A program made the translations under genes and the position numbers. This document shows positions 1 to 32,289 of a DNA stretch of 64,000 bases, one piece after another. The DNA lies in NCBI GenBank assembly GCA_014529675.2, contig CP076040.1, positions 4,615,501 to 4,679,500 on the forward strand, written 5' to 3'. The notes beneath the pieces are model-generated. The model searched no databases and was not told the origin of the DNA. It saw only the letters and a program-made list of their open reading frames with translations. Position 1 is the stretch's first letter, and every line of letters starts with the position of its first letter. The stretch is from Opitutia bacterium ISCC 52 (GTDB lineage Bacteria; Verrucomicrobiota; Verrucomicrobiia; Opitutales; UBA2995).

Positions 1-2
1 TG

Positions 3-107
3 GTTCGAGGTAGAATGCTTGAAAGGCATGTGTTGGCTCAGGCAGTTCGGTGGCATTTGGAAAACCGAGTGCTCGTCTATGGTCGAAAGACAGTCGTGTT
101 TGACTAA
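3..107 (+). CDS. purU: formyltetrahydrofolate deformylase, C-terminal end only
   Basis: The frame beginning at base 3 is open from the window edge to TAA at 105-107. It reads as the last 34 residues of a protein, including [20 protein letters not shown] and ending [10 protein letters not shown]. This matches, from memory, the C-terminus of PurU, where a conserved arginine/glutamate helix is followed by a V-YG-(N/R)-(K/R)-T strand. PurU hydrolyses 10-formyl-tetrahydrofolate to formate and tetrahydrofolate. The active site lies upstream of the window, so only the family tail is seen. No other family with this ending comes to mind, but the piece is short. Confidence 0.72.
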
Positions 108-188
108 CTTTCCCTGCTGCCATGGGGCTTCCGTTATGAGGTTGACTAAACCCACTTTTGCCTAAATGTCAGACGGTTTCAAATTTTC

Positions 189-914
189 ATGGCCTCAAAA
201 TCTAAAGACACGTCCAATTCTGGCGACAATCAAGATACCTTCGAGAAATTGGATGAAGCGTATGCAGAATCCAGTGTGGAGGAGCAATTGCTCGTTTATT
301 GGAACCGCCATAAGAACCAGATCGTACTAGGCATAAGTGTAGTCGTTGTTCTGATTATTGGTTTTCAAATTTCCAAGTGGTGGAGTGCCAAAGCGATTTC
401 TGATCGTGGGCAAGCCTATGCGGAGGCAAGCGACGATGCACAGAAACAGGCATTTGCTGATGACAATTCTGGTTCAGATCTTGGCGGAATTGCCTATCTC
501 GAACTGGCCGACAGCGCCTACTCCGAAGGTGAATATTCTTCAGCCGTCTCCCTCTATGAGAAAGCATTCAAAGCATTCGAGATGATTGAGTTCAAGCAAC
601 GCGCTCATCTCGGCCTGGCAATGTCTCGTTTGCAAGCAGGAGAAGAAGGCAATGCCAGCAAGGACCTGCAGTCTATTGCCGACAACTCAGAATACCCTGA
701 TGCGGCTCGAGGTGAAGCGCTTTACCAATTGTCTGTCATCGATTGGCAGAACGGAGATTTCGTCTCCATGCTAGCCCACCAGGATCGGATCGACGGGCTG
801 GTCAATGCAGGAAACTGGCAGGGTAAAGCGCTCCAATTGCAGAGCTCCATTCCTGAATTAAAGGAGTTGGTTGAAGCGAGTGCTGCTGGAGGAGAGACCG
901 CTCTCGAAAACTAA
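189..914 (+). CDS. YfgM-like membrane-anchored TPR protein
   Basis: 241 aa. A polar N-terminal segment is followed by one transmembrane helix (about residues 44-62), then a helical C-terminal domain with repeated TPR-like pairs (for example AYLELADSAYSEGEYSSAVS and the AMSRLQAGEEGNA region). One N-terminal anchor plus an exported TPR domain is the layout of YfgM/ancillary SecYEG-translocon proteins. The sequence does not show what it binds. It starts at an ATG 81 bases after purU. Its stop codon overlaps the stop of the converging ExbB remnant. A general TPR scaffold of unknown role is the main alternative. Confidence 0.6.
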   Translation: MASKSKDTSNSGDNQDTFEKLDEAYAESSVEEQLLVYWNRHKNQIVLGISVVVVLIIGFQISKWWSAKAISDRGQAYAEASDDAQKQAFADDNSGSDLGGIAYLELADSAYSEGEYSSAVSLYEKAFKAFEMIEFKQRAHLGLAMSRLQAGEEGNASKDLQSIADNSEYPDAARGEALYQLSVIDWQNGDFVSMLAHQDRIDGLVNAGNWQGKALQLQSSIPELKELVEASAAGGETALEN

Positions 915-1348
915 GTCTCTTCCTCCTTTCCCTCATCGAGGGTGTCCATCAATACATTGGCAGCTTGGATCGTTGCCAGCATCCCGTTGTTCACACGGTT
1001 GCGCATCATAAAGAAGCAAATCATGGATGGAATTCCGATTACCAAGCCCGTGGCTGTCGTAATGAGTGCTTCGCCTATATTACCAGCAAATAGCTCGGGG
1101 CGCCCCATTCCGCTGGTGGCCATAGTTTGAAAGGCGCCAATCATTCCGCTTACCGTTCCGAGCAGACCAATCATGGGTGCGACCGCTGCAATTACATTTA
1201 GGTAGGTTAGCAATCCTTCCTTCTCGGCCCGATTGGTTTCCTCCGCCAACCAGGTTTGAAAACCATCGGGATCGCGTTTGATTTTTTCCAACGCCTGAAG
1301 GATAGACTGAGTCTCAGCTGCTTGCGTGTCGTTCCCGTATGTGATCAA
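911..1348 (-). pseudogene. MotA/TolQ/ExbB proton channel, C-terminal half only
   Basis: The frame encodes the second and third transmembrane helices of an ExbB/TolQ subunit, with the diagnostic APMIGLLGTVSGMIGAF segment and a following GEALITTATGLVIGIPSM helix. ExbB proteins normally have a first transmembrane helix and about 60-90 more residues before this point. Here the only in-frame start is a TTG. Upstream codons in the same frame read as TPR-protein sequence (AYQQDGKTDQAYPVFEEAL), continuing the broken gene at 1356-3272 after a one-base shift. This therefore looks like a TPR gene fused by deletion to an exbB lacking its N-terminal helix. A channel without the first helix would not be expected to assemble with ExbD. 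No exbD follows. Confidence 0.7.
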
Positions 1349-1355
1349 AGCTTCC

Positions 1356-3272
1356 TCAAAAACCGGGTAAGCTTGATCCGTTTTTCCATCTTGCTGATAG
1401 GCCCAGCCAATACAGAGCTTCGGTCACTCGAATCTTCGGGCTTTCGTCCTCTTCAAGAAATGATTCAAACAGCTGCACCATACCAGGATAGTCTTCCTGT
1501 GCGCGGTATATCTTGCCGCGTTGAAACAGGCTATACAGATACATATCCGGTGACTCCCAGGATACGGAATCGAATGATGCTGTGGCTTCCTCCAGCAAAC
1601 CTTGGCCCATTAAAATGTCACCTCGAAGCACATGCGCTTCATTCACGCGCTGATGCCGTGCAAAGTTTTTCAGATAGTCGTCGATGGTTTCAAGCGCGGG
1701 CTCATAGTCTCTGGCAGAGTAATGAGCTGAGGCGAGCCGGTAGAGAATTTCTGGATATAATGGGTGACGGGAATCCAAGCTGCGAAGCTCTGAGAGTTGA
1801 TCGATACAGGCGGCATAATTTCTTTCGAAGAAATATGTGAGGGCGTTCCAGAGCCTGGAATTTATAGCAAGCTGTCCTTGTGGATGCTCAGTTGCATAGC
1901 GCGCGAAATCTGTTCTTGCCGCTTCATAGTCTTCCAACACTACCTGATTGAATCCACGAGTGAATACCCACCGTCCGTGCAATGGGTGGTCGGGGAACGA
2001 TTGAATCAGGTCGTTGAGAACGTCGATGCTCTCGGAAAAGCGGCGTTGTTCCAGATGAGCTTTGGCGATTAAGTAGAGCGCTTGGGGTGCCAGCTTGGAG
2101 TCGGGATAACGTTCCACAAAGTTTCGCGCTATAGTCAGTGCTTCCTCCCAGTCCTGCAATTGATGTGCGCATATCACCCAACGATAATGCGCCTCCTCTC
2201 GAATAGATGTTTCATATGCTTCCTTGAGGGAGATGTATTCAAACATCAACCACACCTTATACAATTGCCCATCGAACAGCAGGCATTGCCCGTAGTGCAA
2301 ATAGAAGGTGGGTGTGTAATCCTCCGAAGTTTCAAGGGCTTCCAGTTGCTGAGTGAGCTGTTGTTCAAGTCGGCCCAGGTACTGTTGCTGGTGACGATTG
2401 GTGGCCAGGATTGCGCGGCGCCTACCGCTCAAGATACGAAGTTTGAGATCGTCCAGTTTCTCCTTTTTCAGACGAACAAGTTGGGATTTTGGAGGGACCA
2501 GTTGAAATAACTTCAAAGCCGCCTGGTAGCGACCTGTTGCCATCGAATACTCTCCACAGCGCAAGGCCGAAAAAGCCAATTGGGCCAATTCTGGCATCGT
2601 AGTAATCGACCAGGTGTTGTTAAGCATCCGTGCTGTAGCTTGGTCCATCTGGCCCGCGTTCAAGTGAGCTTGAATCGCTTTCAGCTGTCCTTGCATTTTT
2701 AAGGAATCGGGTGCTGATGAATTAGAAAAGGCGTCGAGTTCAGCCAGACCTTCTTCCAGCATGTCATCTGCGAAGAAAAGGTCTGCCTTCTCTAAATTTG
2801 CCAGGAAGGCTTCGAGCGTTCCGGCTACATGTTTGATATACCGGTCGAGAGCTACGCGAGCTTTGCTGTTATTACCGGCTCCTTTGTGCGCGTGAGCCCA
2901 GCCTTAGAGTAGGGCGGCATTCTGCTCAAGCGCTTGTGGGTAGGATGCTTCCAATGAGTCGAGTGTATCGGCTGCTTGTTCAAATTGACCTGCCCCGAGC
3001 TCCGCCAATCCTTTCAAGGGTAGAATACGCCTCTGGACTTCCCCCTCCAAATACTCGTCTTCTGCTCCAAATGTAAGCTCCAGCGATTGAAACAAACTCG
3101 CTGCAGTTTGAAGGTCTCCAGAACCTGCAGCTTCTATACATGCTTGAAGAGCGTCTTTGAACGTAAGGCCTTCAAGCTCTGTTTGTCCGTATGTGTTGGG
3201 TAGCCATATTAGCCATCCAATTAGTAAACACATACCTGTGAAGATTGGATTTTGAGCCCGAATGCCTGTCAT
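1356..3272 (-). pseudogene. exported TPR protein, broken by TAA and frameshift
   Basis: Read from 3272 downwards, the gene begins with a signal peptide (TGMCLLIGWLIWLPNTYGQT) and TPR-like helices, then meets TAA at 2904-2906. The same frame continues without interruption (GWAHAHKGAGNNSKARVALD) into a further 468 residues of typical TPR repeats, such as YPDSKLAPQALYLIAKAHLE and HYGQCLLFDGQLYKV. Near 1395-1405 the TPR pattern leaves this frame: LYWLG should continue as AYQQDGKTDQAY, which lies one frame over. The gene thus carries one nonsense codon and one single-base shift. TPR proteins next to ExbB/ExbD are common in Verrucomicrobiota and are thought to work at the envelope. Sequencing error is the alternative explanation for both lesions. 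Confidence 0.75.
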
Positions 3273-3367
3273 GAGAGAAGAACCCGGATTGTTAAAGTCG
3301 GCACTGGTTTTGGCAACTTCTTGTTGTGCTTTTCTTTACTCTGACAATCGCTAGAGTTCGTTGGCTT

Positions 3368-3928
3368 ATGGGAGATGTTCTTGAATCACTGACAGAAGAT
3401 CACATTGCCTGGTCAATGAAGCAGAAGATCTTTTTTGTTTCTACTGCGCCCCTTAGCGAATCCGGTCATATAAATTGTTCACCGAAAGCCAGCGGGTGCT
3501 ATCAGTTTCCTGATAACGGGACCTTCATTTATTCCGATTTCACGGGTAGTGCCAATGAAACGATTGCGCATGTGAATGAAAATGGGCGCATCCTAATAAT
3601 GTTTTGTTCATTCGAAGGACCGCCCAGTGTCATGCGCTTGCATGGGCAAGGCCAAGTGATTTTGCCGGGTCACCAAGACTTTGATACATTTAAAAAGCAA
3701 TTTCCGCAAAATCTAGGCCTTCGTTCGTTCATCAAGGTAACTATCAACCGAGCCTCCGTTTCCTGCGGATATTCAGTCCCTCTATTTGAATTTGCCGGGC
3801 ATCGGGATGCATTGGACAAGTGGGCTCATGTGCAAGGCGAGGAAAAGCTTAAGGAATACCGGGCAATGAAGAATAGCACCAGCATTGATGGCCTTCCCGC
3901 TTACGAGCGCCTTCGTCGTAAAGAGTGA
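3368..3928 (+). CDS. pyridoxamine 5'-phosphate oxidase-family FMN-binding protein
   Basis: 186 aa from the ATG at 3368. A GTG 42 bases upstream would add an unconvincing extension. The N-terminus reads as a short helix, then the split-barrel strand KIFFVSTAPLSESGHINCSP, followed by FIYSDFTGSANETIAHVNEN and RILIMFCSFEG. These are the flavin-binding strands of the PPOX/Pyridox_oxidase family. Family members are FMN- or F420-dependent oxidoreductases or flavin-binding proteins. The substrate cannot be read from sequence. It is transcribed away from the broken TPR gene and is followed by the tRNA gene. Confidence 0.75.
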   Translation: MGDVLESLTEDHIAWSMKQKIFFVSTAPLSESGHINCSPKASGCYQFPDNGTFIYSDFTGSANETIAHVNENGRILIMFCSFEGPPSVMRLHGQGQVILPGHQDFDTFKKQFPQNLGLRSFIKVTINRASVSCGYSVPLFEFAGHRDALDKWAHVQGEEKLKEYRAMKNSTSIDGLPAYERLRRKE

Positions 3929-3974
3929 CTGTTCCAGGTGAGAAACACGCCCTCAAACCGTTGTAAATAACCGA

Positions 3975-4004
3975 TTGACAAAGTCGATGAAAGCCTTGTG
4001 ATTA
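3975..4004 (+). promoter_or_regulatory. candidate sigma-70 promoter of tRNA-Pro
   Basis: A perfect TTGACA (3975-3980) is followed after 18 bases by TGATTA (3999-4004), about 15 bases before the tRNA 5' end. The -35 is consensus and the -10 is weak, so this is a suggestion from spacing and position only. Confidence 0.35.
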
Positions 4005-4019
4005 CGCCCTCCTTAATAT

Positions 4020-4097
4020 CGGGGTGTAGTTCAGCCTGGCTAGAGCGCCTGCTTTGGGAGCAGGAAGTCGGCGGTTCGAATCCGTCCACCCCGACCA
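4020..4097 (+). tRNA. tRNA-Pro (anticodon TGG)
   Basis: The acceptor arms CGGGGTG (4020-4026) and CACCCCG (4087-4093) pair perfectly. Discriminator A and an encoded CCA (4095-4097) follow. The anticodon stem CCTGC/GCAGG encloses the loop TTTGGGA, giving anticodon TGG, and the T loop is TTCGAAT. UGG reads all or most proline codons. Its antisense strand produces the familiar spurious GFEPPTSCSQSRRS peptide. Confidence 0.97.
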
Positions 4098-4102
4098 TTT
4101 TC

Positions 4103-4128
4103 AACCACCGACCAAGTGGTTTTCTTTT
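4103..4128 (+). terminator. intrinsic terminator after tRNA-Pro
   Basis: A 6-bp stem AACCAC/GTGGTT with a 7-base loop begins five bases after the tRNA CCA end. A T-rich tail TTCTTTT follows immediately. Position and form fit a rho-independent terminator for the tRNA transcript. Confidence 0.7.
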
Positions 4129-4273
4129 GTACCTTTCCAACGGAGGTGTGGGTGGGGCGATGTCCTCACGGATTGCGGTGGTCAATTCGGCGAAAAAAAC
4201 AATCTGCCCTCTTTCCTCATAATCCCTTCTTTCCCGACTTGAATTGCTAAACAAATCCCTCTTTAGTGGCGCC

Positions 4274-4870
4274 ATGGAAAATTTGGCAAAAGCAACGCCT
4301 ATTATTGCGATCGCAGCCTTCGTGTGCGGTTTGGTTGGCTTAATCCTTGGAATTGTAGCCTTTCAGAAGTCTTCAGAGATCGATGCGGTGACAGAAATTA
4401 AGGATGCTAACGCGACCATCAGTGAGAGCGTAGCTGGTTTACAAACGGAGATGGATGGCATTTCAAAGAAGTATGTAACGCTCACGCAATTGAAGGAATT
4501 TGCGAATTCAACACAGGACGGATTTAATCAAATCACTGATACGATCTCCAAGACTCGCACGGATGTCCGCGCGAATACGATCAAAGTCGCCGAGTTAGAG
4601 ACCAAGCTTCAAAGTGGTGGGGTTGTTCGTAGATCAACTCCCAGTTCCTCCAGTTCGAGTTCATCGTCTCCATCGGCTACCTCTGATTCCTCTGCAGCTG
4701 CAGCGTCTTCGGGCCCTGCAGGTGGGGCCGAGTACACCATCCAATCCGGTGATACTTTGGGAAAAGTCGCGGCTAATTTTGGAGTTACTCTAGATAAGCT
4801 CTTAAGTGCTAATCCCGGTGTGCAGCCTCGCTACCTCAAGGTAGGGCAGACCATTGTGATTCCTGAATAG
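4274..4870 (+). CDS. membrane-anchored LysM peptidoglycan-binding protein
   Basis: 198 aa from the ATG at 4274; a TTG 30 bases upstream is the only longer option. One N-terminal transmembrane helix (about residues 7-29, AIAAFVCGLVGLILGIVAF) is followed by a coiled-coil stretch, a Ser/Ala/Gly-rich linker (about residues 120-152) and a C-terminal LysM domain (YTIQSGDTLGKVAANFGVTL, then NPGVQPRYLKVGQTIVIPE). LysM binds the glycan of peptidoglycan, so the protein probably links the inner membrane to the wall. No hydrolase domain is present. Confidence 0.85.
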   Translation: MENLAKATPIIAIAAFVCGLVGLILGIVAFQKSSEIDAVTEIKDANATISESVAGLQTEMDGISKKYVTLTQLKEFANSTQDGFNQITDTISKTRTDVRANTIKVAELETKLQSGGVVRRSTPSSSSSSSSSPSATSDSSAAAASSGPAGGAEYTIQSGDTLGKVAANFGVTLDKLLSANPGVQPRYLKVGQTIVIPE

Positions 4871-4886
4871 GCTGTCGGTTTAGAGA

Positions 4887-5435
4887 ATGTCCACCCAGTC
4901 CGATCCCTCCTGCTGGGAAAAAAAGGAGTCGGAGCTCGTTGCGGATTGTCGGATTTTTAAACTATTTAAAAACCGCTTTCGCCATCCGGTAAGTCAAACC
5001 GAAGGCGATTTCTTCGCCATAGACGCTGCTGATTGGATAACGGTGGTGGCCATAACAGAGAATCAGGAGCTGGTAACTGTTCGGCAATTTCGATTCGGTA
5101 TCGAAGATCTATCTTTGGAAGTACCTGCGGGCTTAATGGAATCTGGAGAGGATCCTCTGGCAACCGGACTTCGAGAATTACGAGAGGAAACCGGTTTCGA
5201 GGGGGAAGATGCCGAGTTGCTTGGCTGGGTTTATCCGAATCCAGCGATTCAGAACAATCGTTGTTTTGTCATTGGCGTAAATAATGCCCGTCAGGTTGCT
5301 TCGACTGAATGGGATGAGCATGAGGAGCTTCAGACTCAGCTTATCCCTCTAGGCGATATGTCGCAAAGGATTCAAACGGGTGAGTTTCGGCACTCCTTAA
5401 GTATCTGTGCTTGGAGCTACTATTGTATGAAGTAG
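4887..5435 (+). CDS. Nudix hydrolase, ADP-ribose pyrophosphatase-like
   Basis: 182 aa. It contains a complete Nudix box (G-x5-E-x7-REL-x-EE-x-GF) formed by GLMESGE and RELREETGF, about residues 88-110. The preceding strand VRQFRFGIEDLSLEVPAG is typical of the NudF/ADP-ribose pyrophosphatase branch, which hydrolyses nucleoside diphosphate sugars with Mg2+. The substrate remains a family-level guess. It starts 16 bases after the LysM gene and is probably co-transcribed with it. Confidence 0.82.
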   Translation: MSTQSDPSCWEKKESELVADCRIFKLFKNRFRHPVSQTEGDFFAIDAADWITVVAITENQELVTVRQFRFGIEDLSLEVPAGLMESGEDPLATGLRELREETGFEGEDAELLGWVYPNPAIQNNRCFVIGVNNARQVASTEWDEHEELQTQLIPLGDMSQRIQTGEFRHSLSICAWSYYCMK

Positions 5436-29883: not shown

Positions 29884-30250
29884 TTACTTGAGATGGAGCC
29901 CACTCTGGTCGTCTACTTTCGCTTTCATTCCCCAGCCACCGAAACCTTCCTTTAGGGTGAACAGGACTTCGTTGTCGCCTTCTTTGAGGTTGAGGTAAAG
30001 GGAGTCGAAAACCCCGATGGTTCCCAGGTAGCGGTAGTCGCGTGTTCGAAAAGCGTTGGTACCTGCGTAGACAAGCTGACCGTTTACGAAGGCCTGGATG
30101 TCGTCACTATACCCGAAGTCGAGTCGCTGAATCTGGTTTCGAGCGATGAAGGAAAGACGCGATTCCGATTAAGCCTGCGGTTGGCCTGAAATACAAAAAA
30201 ATCGCCGGTCGTGTAAGAAATCGTTCTGTCCAGCTTACTAATAGGGTAAA
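29884..30250 (-). pseudogene. 3' fragment of a protein gene, frameshifted
   Basis: The minus strand of this otherwise gene-free 499-base gap keeps coding sequence. Reading from 30165 to the TAA at 29884-29886 gives the open stretch RLSFIARNQIQRLDFGYSDD, then IQAFVNGQLVYAGTNAF, RTRDYRYLGTIGVFDSLYLN and GFGGWGMKAKVDD. This is a coherent beta-rich domain end. Upstream, TTGDFFVFQAN lies in another frame, so a shift sits near 30165-30180. No start region is left before the sigma gene. The parent family is not recognised. The remaining bases 29766-29883 contain nothing I can interpret. Confidence 0.6.
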
Positions 30251-30264
30251 CAGGATTGAAACGA

Positions 30265-30783
30265 ATGAAGCGACAGGAACAAGAACGCGTATTTGCTGCA
30301 TGGATGAACGACCATAAAGGGCTCATCTACAAAGTGGTACGCGCCTACGCCTCCAATGCAACGGACCAGGAAGATCTGTTTCAGTAGATAGCGGCTCAGC
30401 TCTGGTTCTCGATACCCAAGTTTAAAGGGAAGTCTTCCGAGACAACCTGGATCTGCCGGGTGGCGTTGTTTTGTTCTATGTCCTGGACGAAAAAAGAATC
30501 CCGCCGACGGAAAGGGAAGGGGGCCTATAAGAATGAGCAGACGTTTCTGTCTCTCAATCCGGAAAAGGAAAACTCACGCCTAACTTGGTTGTACGAGCAA
30601 ATCAACCAGCTAAGCTCGATCGACCGTTCTCTGACCCTCCTTCTCTTAGATGGATATAGCTATAAGGAGATGGCGAGTATTCTCGGTATTACGGAGAGCA
30701 ATGTGGGGGTCAAAATAAGCCGTATCAAGAAATCACTTACGGATAGAATAAATCAAATGGAAGACGAGCATCATGAAATTTGA
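30265..30783 (+). pseudogene. sigma-70 family (ECF-like) factor with in-frame TAG
   Basis: From the ATG at 30265 the frame encodes region 2 (ERVFAAWMNDHKGLIYKVVR, DQEDLFQ), meets TAG at 30385-30387, and continues as IAAQLWFSIPKFKGKSSETT without a frame change. The region 4 helix-turn-helix follows in the same frame (LLLLDGYSYKEMASILGITE, SNVGVKISRIKK). With the TAG read as an amino acid, the product would be 172 aa. In relatives the position after DLFQ is normally Glu, so GAG to TAG is the simplest cause. The downstream 107-aa piece alone has region 4 but lacks the core-binding region 2. The next gene overlaps its end. Confidence 0.75.
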
Positions 30784-31424: not shown

Positions 31425-31844
31425 ATGATTAAACGCAGGAAACGTCAGCAACCGGAAGAGGAGTTCCAAATGGCTCCCATGATCGATATGGTTTTCCTGT
31501 TGTTGGTGTTTTTCATGTGCGTCAGCTCACTCTCCCAGGCAGAGAAACCGGATGCAGTTAAAGAGCTACCCGAGTCGCATGCCAGCGAAGTGCCTGATGA
31601 TGTGTCGGACCGTGGTATCATTTCCGTTAAGACAGATGGATCACTCTATCTAGGGCCATCGAGTATCACGATGGAGGATCTGAAAACGCGGATCGGTGGA
31701 AAGATCAAAGACAACCCAAACCTCCAGATCTTCGTTCGCGCCGACAAGGCGACCCCCTTTGCTGAAATCAAGAAAATCCTGGAGGCCTGTGCTGAGATGG
31801 GAGCCTACGAAGTCATCTACGCAACCTTTCAAGCTTCGGAATAA
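31425..31844 (+). CDS. ExbD/TolR family protein 1
   Basis: 139 aa from the ATG at 31425; the frame extends upstream to 31374 without a better start. It shows the ExbD pattern: a basic N-terminus (KRRKRQQPEEEF), then MAPMIDMVFLLLVFFMCVSS with the proton-path Asp in the transmembrane helix, then a periplasmic domain ending FAEIKKILEACAEMGAYEVI. ExbD works with an ExbB channel to drive TonB or envelope machines. No exbB is adjacent. The second exbD starts two bases downstream. Confidence 0.9.
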   Translation: MIKRRKRQQPEEEFQMAPMIDMVFLLLVFFMCVSSLSQAEKPDAVKELPESHASEVPDDVSDRGIISVKTDGSLYLGPSSITMEDLKTRIGGKIKDNPNLQIFVRADKATPFAEIKKILEACAEMGAYEVIYATFQASE

Positions 31845-31845
31845 C

Positions 31846-32289
31846 ATGGCGCGTTTGAAGAAAAAGCCGGAACCCAAGTCATCAATCCCGATCGCCCCAA
31901 TGATCGACGTGGTTTTCCTGTTGCTCATGTACTACCTCGTTACTTCGACTCTGGATAAGCAGGAAGCTGATATTTCTTTTCAACTGCCTGGCGTAGTCGA
32001 GCAATCAGAACCTGTGGACATGCCCGATGAGCAAATCATTGAGATTGGGGATGATGGCCAGGTGATCGTGAACGAGTTTGCCTACGATGCACCCACTTCG
32101 TCACGTTTTCTAGAGCTGGTTGGTATGCTCACTCGCTTCAAGGAGGCCAGCGATGCCAACAAGTTAGAAGCCCTGGTAATCATAGCTCCCAGCGATAGCA
32201 CCACCCATCAAATGATCATCAAAGTTATGGATGCCTGCTCCGTCGCAGGGATAACAGGCGTTAATTTCGCTATTTCAGAAGACTATTAG
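31846..32289 (+). CDS. ExbD/TolR family protein 2
   Basis: 147 aa. The N-terminus has SIPIAPMIDVVFLLLMYYLV with the conserved Asp of the transmembrane helix, and the periplasmic domain ends MIIKVMDACSVAGITGVNFA, the usual ExbD finish. It overlaps no gene and follows exbD 1 by one base after its stop. Paired exbD genes behind one exbB are common in this phylum, but the exbB is missing here. Confidence 0.9.
   Translation: MARLKKKPEPKSSIPIAPMIDVVFLLLMYYLVTSTLDKQEADISFQLPGVVEQSEPVDMPDEQIIEIGDDGQVIVNEFAYDAPTSSRFLELVGMLTRFKEASDANKLEALVIIAPSDSTTHQMIIKVMDACSVAGITGVNFAISEDY

Follow-up and report, generated by a model that had tools for sequence, protein, structure and literature searches.

Disrupted TPR-exbB locus in strain ISCC 52

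Near the start of a 64,000-nt stretch of the Opitutia bacterium ISCC 52 genome (hereafter the window; positions 4615501 to 4679500 of a single 4.82-Mb contig, genome G000), an interrupted TPR gene runs into the C-terminal half of an ExbB, raising the questions of how this locus was broken, how recently, and to what system its exbB belonged. On the minus strand, positions 3272 to 1401 translate as a single frame with one TAA (2904 to 2906); past position ~1400, TPR sequence resumes in the +1 frame and continues free of stops into the ExbB C-terminal half, which ends at position 911 (Table 1). Pfam searches of the window matched TPR families at 1356 to 2762 and MotA_ExbB (PF01618) at 911 to 1348, the latter with 86.9 bits over profile positions 10 to 120 of 127, above the gathering score of 22.9. 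The fused frame contains only two hydrophobic segments, corresponding to ExbB helices 2 and 3, and thus falls short of the three membrane helices of a MotA/TolQ/ExbB channel. The original prediction, made from the sequence alone, had delimited the feature as 911 to 3272 and had described both the in-frame TAA and an ExbB half beginning in TPR sequence; translation and Pfam bear this out, and the TAA is absent from the closely related genome G005. It had also placed a one-base shift near position 1400, where the frame does change, but alignment to relatives shows a net loss of 5 nt within 1396 to 1409. An Rfam search of window positions 1 to 5000 for an RNA element near the locus returned only a tRNA (4020 to 4094).

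Table 1. Features of the disrupted locus and of the exbD pair in the window
Feature	Positions	Strand	Evidence
TPR1 5' part; N terminus probably a signal peptide (by eye)	2907..3272	-	ORF 2904-3272; alignments to G005 and G002
In-frame TAA	2904..2906	-	Private to ISCC 52; tyrosine codon in G005
TPR1 central TPR repeats	1405..2903	-	Pfam TPR matches; dN/dS versus G005 of 0.10
Net loss of 5 nt within a short direct repeat of the TGGGC type	1396..1409	-	Same deletion in G005
TPR1 continuation in the +1 frame, to the deletion junction	1205..1402	-	dN/dS versus G005 of 0.10 over 66 codons
Deletion junction, TACCT microhomology between TPR1 and exbB	1200..1204	-	Alignment to G005 and gene positions in relatives
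3' end of exbB (codons ~147-244; helices 2 and 3), joined in frame to TPR1	911..1199	-	Translation, Pfam, hydrophobicity
TPR_21 (YfgM-like) gene, convergent, intact; conserved operon edge	189..914	+	ORF and relatives
exbD1, intact; putatively paired with the lost ExbB	31425..31844	+	PF02472, 78.4 bits for 31428-31841; co-occurrence, joined loci
exbD2, intact; putatively paired with the lost ExbB	31846..32289	+	PF02472, 70.7 bits; co-occurrence, joined loci

Intact operon in relatives

In three relatives (G001, G002, and G007), the gene order is TPR1, geneB (~330 aa), exbB (244 aa), and then the convergent TPR_21 (YfgM-like) gene; in a fourth (G004), the 3' part of the operon is present and a contig end cuts off the rest. 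TPR1 is an uninterrupted frame of ~970 to 1040 aa in close relatives, and the ISCC 52 copy is 88% identical in nucleotides to that of G005 over a 2107-nt alignment and 62.9% identical in amino acids to G002 residues 28 to 666. geneB has weak Pfam TPR matches or none, and its predicted structure comprises a small beta domain and a TPR-like solenoid. The intact ExbB proteins of G001 and G002 have an N-terminal signal-like segment and three hydrophobic segments. Intact exbB orthologues match PF01618 with 93.9 and 92.1 bits, and an intact orthologue lies far below the cut-offs of the NCBIfam exbB and tolQ equivalog models. Relatives that share the fusion and lack the first helix had been named as evidence against decay; the matches of all 61 exbB orthologues in the order begin at query residue 1 to 30, and therefore no relative carries the ISCC 52 fusion. 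Because these orthologues all start near full length and TPR1 is intact in close relatives, the broken state is not a matter of chance.

Measured against the relatives, ~2.17 kb is gone from ISCC 52, namely, the last ~300 codons of TPR1, the whole of geneB, and the first ~146 codons of exbB. The deletion proposed to have joined an upstream TPR gene to exbB is thus supported, with the addition that geneB was removed as well. Its size is an estimate, since exbB of G005 is interrupted by a ~100-nt contig gap at the same spot. The G005 contigs concerned (ends of C118 and C153) stop in exbB, one ~41 nt short of the window's junction position and the other ~62 nt past it; a population in which some cells carry a similar deletion allele could be the cause of this contig break. 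Later decay had been proposed too: the additional inactivating lesions are present, but "later" is unproven, because the order of the lesions in ISCC 52 cannot be told. As for the expected loss of the channel, it holds for this ExbB, while the genome retains eight other PF01618 matches and nine ExbD matches.

Isolated stop codons also occur elsewhere. A PNPOx-like gene adjoining the intact operon of G001 (G001:C8:40434-41015) contains one TGA and one TAA over the matched stretch and is open in G000, G002, and G005. Within genus g52, exbB of G151, G234, and G254 has one in-frame TAG each over the matched stretch. One TGA apiece is present in G051 exbB and G044 exbD2.

Putative partners at two other loci

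Comparison with TPR-ExbB-ExbD loci had been suggested from the sequence; it led to the intact operon but not to an adjacent exbD. The putative partner is the exbD pair 28 kb away in the window. By eye, an exbD directly follows exbB in none of the 13 loci with at least 2.4 kb of downstream sequence (two further loci with too little sequence were left out); in G014, a separate tolQ-tolR pair is found 1.8 to 3.0 kb downstream of exbB. The exbD1-exbD2 pair in turn has no PF01618 match near it, and each of the two ExbDs has one helix with an Asp (MIDMVFLL and MIDVVFLL). A further ExbD match in ISCC 52 (G000:C1:1605755-1606126) has no listed PF01618 match within 100 kb. The argH gene beside exbD2 is 80 to 83% identical in G001 and G004.

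Among 273 genomes of the order, with 61 orthologues of each gene, exbB and exbD2 are both present in 56, exbB only in 5, exbD2 only in 5, and neither in 207 (Fisher P = 4e-46, uncorrected for phylogeny). Positive calls had E values of at most 1.9e-53 (exbB) and 5.6e-44 (exbD2), and the counts were compiled manually; partial or weaker matches were counted as absent, for exbB in G000, G005, G258, G146, G086, G198, G190, G183, and G270 and for exbD2 in G258, G198, G243, G223, and G125. Some genomes with a single gene are incomplete (exbB only, G002, 75%, G106, 67%, and G254, 84%; exbD2 only, G087, 88%). For 52 of the 56 genomes that carry the two genes, no linkage of the loci within ~3 kb was seen.

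The third locus is that of a vWA gene, whose ISCC 52 orthologue (G000:C1:3751305) is intact, encodes 339 aa, and lies ~0.86 Mb from the window. Its dN/dS between ISCC 52 and G005 is 0.044. The predicted structure has the TM helix, disordered linker, and vWA domain architecture of a transducer (helix at 23 to 49, low confidence at 46 to 142, alpha/beta domain at 145 to 338; mean pLDDT, 69.8), and Foldseek matched the domain to vWA structures (best E value, 4.6e-9). Across 53 relatives, vWA and exbB are both present in 15 and both absent in 33, with exbB only in 2 (G044 and G051) and vWA only in 3; these three (G000, G005, and G006) are the lesion-bearing lineages. The vWA gene of G068 is split into two frames.

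These patterns suggest that the dead TPR1-geneB-exbB operon was, very probably, part of a system with the exbD1-exbD2 pair and the vWA gene at the two other loci. Alternatively, the operon is dead but the exbD pair and the vWA gene are not its partners and merely reside in the same larger genomes. We regard this as unlikely: the co-occurrence is uncorrected for phylogeny, and single occurrences exist (e.g., G006 and G111), but in four genomes (G250, G215, G068, and G186) all of the genes are contiguous and co-oriented in the order TPR1, geneB, exbB, vWA, exbD1, exbD2; more distant clusters in five others (G034, G029, G017, G026, and G014) are arranged as TPR, B-like gene, ExbB, ExbD1, ExbD2; and exbB and exbD2 are present or absent together in the examined genomes of families f4, f5, f10, and f21. 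In the G034, G017, and G014 clusters, the next gene encodes an N-terminal helix and a proline-rich stretch. As G006 carries exbD1-exbD2 and vWA without exbB, and G111, G075, and G087 carry exbD2 without an exbB orthologue, the exbD pair may also serve another ExbB.

Losses across the family

The operon is broken or missing in four of the eight family genomes compared (G000, G005, G003, and G006). In a tree of the YfgM-like protein, ISCC 52 groups with its sister species G005 (99/97) and G006 groups with G007; in G006, the YfgM-like gene is in place and the operon is absent. The breakage in the two sister species is opposite: ISCC 52 retains ExbD1, ExbD2, and vWA and has lost TPR1, geneB, and ExbB, whereas G005 retains geneB, vWA, and the contig-covered parts of exbB and has lost TPR1 and the ExbDs. 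The exbD locus of G005 carries its own deletion of ~2.0 kb, which removed exbD1 together with codons 1 to ~88 of exbD2 and joined the match up to window position 30078 to the match from 32113, with ~AGCTG at the join. The corresponding stretch of the window also contains an ECF-like sigma factor gene (30265 to 30777; Sigma70_r4_2, 40.8 bits, C-terminal part) with an in-frame TAG (30385 to 30387), which was deleted from G005 together with exbD1.

In G003, an exbB relic with several stops lies beside an ORF that by eye looks transposase-like, and at the thresholds used we did not find TPR1 (beyond weak TPR similarity), an exbD2 orthologue, the exbD pair, or the vWA gene. The relic likewise retains only the part after helix 1, and the purU gene beside it matches only as fragments in different frames.

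Recent death and a shared 5-nt deletion

ISCC 52 and G005 differ at synonymous sites with dS of ~0.43. G005 is free of the large deletion and carries its own TPR1 lesions (a 1-nt deletion, a 2-nt deletion, and two TAA codons), and yet it has the identical 5-nt deletion. dN/dS of TPR1 between the two genomes is 0.10 both before and after the frame lesion, compared with 0.055 to 0.137 for four intact neighbors and 0.084 for the 3' end of exbB. Synonymous versus nonsynonymous differences number 138:60 before the lesion and 18:9 after it, versus 160:65 in the four neighbors; the two parts of TPR1 do not differ from the neighbors (Fisher P = 0.75 and 0.66) and depart from neutrality (P = 1e-39 and 6e-6), and the neutral share of the divergence is at most ~10%. 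Since TPR1 thus resembles its intact neighbors, neither copy has been dead for long, and two separate origins of the 5-base loss are probable. A single ancestral pseudogene of the two species is rejected on the same counts, and the common deletion is hard to reconcile with a single, simple course of decay. Which copy died first could not be read from the branch-polarized amino acid changes, too few for this purpose (5 on the ISCC 52 branch and 6 on the G005 branch, with 52 of 63 unresolved).

The simplest reading of the alignments is that the same slippage deletion would have occurred twice in a two-copy TGGGC-type repeat. Short-repeat frameshift hotspots are known, for example, in lacI, and a repeated slippage deletion is plausible because the site holds a two-copy short repeat. 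There is a slim chance that the 5-nt deletion is instead ancestral and was tolerated, via +1 ribosomal frameshifting or as two polypeptides, until recent second hits in each species, and a slightly slimmer one that it was translated across by recoding under strong purifying selection until separate recent lesions. An identical deletion at this synonymous divergence, with the same low dN/dS on both sides and significant constraint after the shift, would agree with an ancestral origin. Over the 14 codons from the deletion to the 0-frame stop, however, five of six differences fall at third codon positions of the original reading frame (P = 0.018), which implies that the shift would have to take place exactly where the deletion lies; inspection by eye revealed no known slippery motif at this site, and the short repeat makes recurrence plausible. 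If true, the recoding reading would mean a natural programmed +1 frameshift inside the scaffold protein of a dispersed vWA motor.

Proposed motor and its loss

ExbB and TolQ form pentamers whose pore holds ExbD or TolR helices; driven by the proton gradient, they set a transducer in motion. By analogy with these families, ExbB in the intact relatives would be the proton-channel stator, the two ExbDs, with the conserved Asp in each single helix, would act in its pore, the vWA protein, through its TM helix, disordered linker, and vWA domain, would carry motion to the envelope, and TPR1 and geneB may be periplasmic scaffolds. In ISCC 52, a deletion of ~2.17 kb at a 5-bp microhomology fused TPR1 to the last ~98 exbB codons, and the TAA and the slippage-type 5-nt deletion further break TPR1. 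With helix 1 missing from ExbB and the scaffolds gone, the motor presumably cannot run, although ExbD1, ExbD2, and vWA are intact.

Errors of sequencing or assembly, with a living cell that still carries an intact operon, are a very improbable explanation of the lesions. Some room for error is left by G005, a metagenome assembly in which exbB is interrupted by contig ends around the position of the window's junction, but a 2.17-kb deletion with an exact microhomology join within one 4.8-Mb contig is no base-calling error, the four neighboring genes aligned to G005 stay in frame with ordinary dN/dS, and the 5-nt deletion recurs in two separate assemblies. We give next to no credence to the TPR-ExbB fusion as a functional new protein. 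In its favor, the join is in frame, which chance would yield in one of three cases; against it, the TAA and the frame shift lie upstream of the join, helix 1 is missing, a periplasmic TPR part would probably invert the topology of helices 2 and 3, and such a fusion occurs in 0 of 61 orthologues.

Taken alone, this is a recent pseudogene of an ordinary kind. What makes it interesting is the dispersed motor to which it leads, the opposite breakage of two sister species, and the identical 5-nt deletion: the broken locus makes an orphan exbB a lead to one candidate motor that is spread over three distant places and is present in roughly a fifth of the 273 sampled genomes of the order, and sister species with different broken parts are natural knock-outs in which the partnership can be tested. 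Recurrent recent loss within one family (G000, G005, G003, and G006) suggests that some lifestyle allows cells to do without the motor, a point relevant to the role of vWA transducers.

Comparison with known systems

In literature searches covering ExbB-TPR systems of Verrucomicrobia, orphan ExbB, ExbD in Opitut* bacteria, and vWA motors, we found neither the dispersed form nor such decay. Compared with CpoB/YbgF (TIGR02795), TPR1 of relatives scores above the NCBIfam cut-off (140.1 and 131.3 versus 90.1); unlike CpoB/YbgF, it is ~1000 aa long, has many repeats, and lies outside a tol-pal operon. As in ExbB-ExbD and TolQ-TolR motors, the exbB remnant (PF01618) and both exbDs (PF02472) match above the cut-offs, but here exbB and exbD are not adjacent and there are two different exbDs.

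The closest likeness is to the vWA force-transducer motors of the PVC group described in 2025 (PMC12204202), whose cluster, as described there, combines a single tolQ/exbB-like gene and two dissimilar tolR/exbD-like genes with a TPR gene and a gene encoding a TM helix, a disordered linker, and a vWA domain. The present system has the same gene set. Because exbB co-occurs with the exbD pair and four genomes join all of the genes with vWA, we conclude that the locus is very probably a fresh pseudogene of a dispersed variant of these motors, with the partnership drawn from linkage and co-occurrence. The variant differs from the clusters as described in several respects: it adds an exported TPR protein, geneB, adjoining exbB; the joined relatives place the vWA gene between exbB and exbD1; and the transducer helix of ISCC 52 has neither the SHLS motif with its His, given for the first family, nor the Asp of the second (PMC12204202). 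The described one-cluster gene set is seen in G250, G215, G068, and G186, whereas in ISCC 52 the genes are dispersed over three loci, one of them broken.
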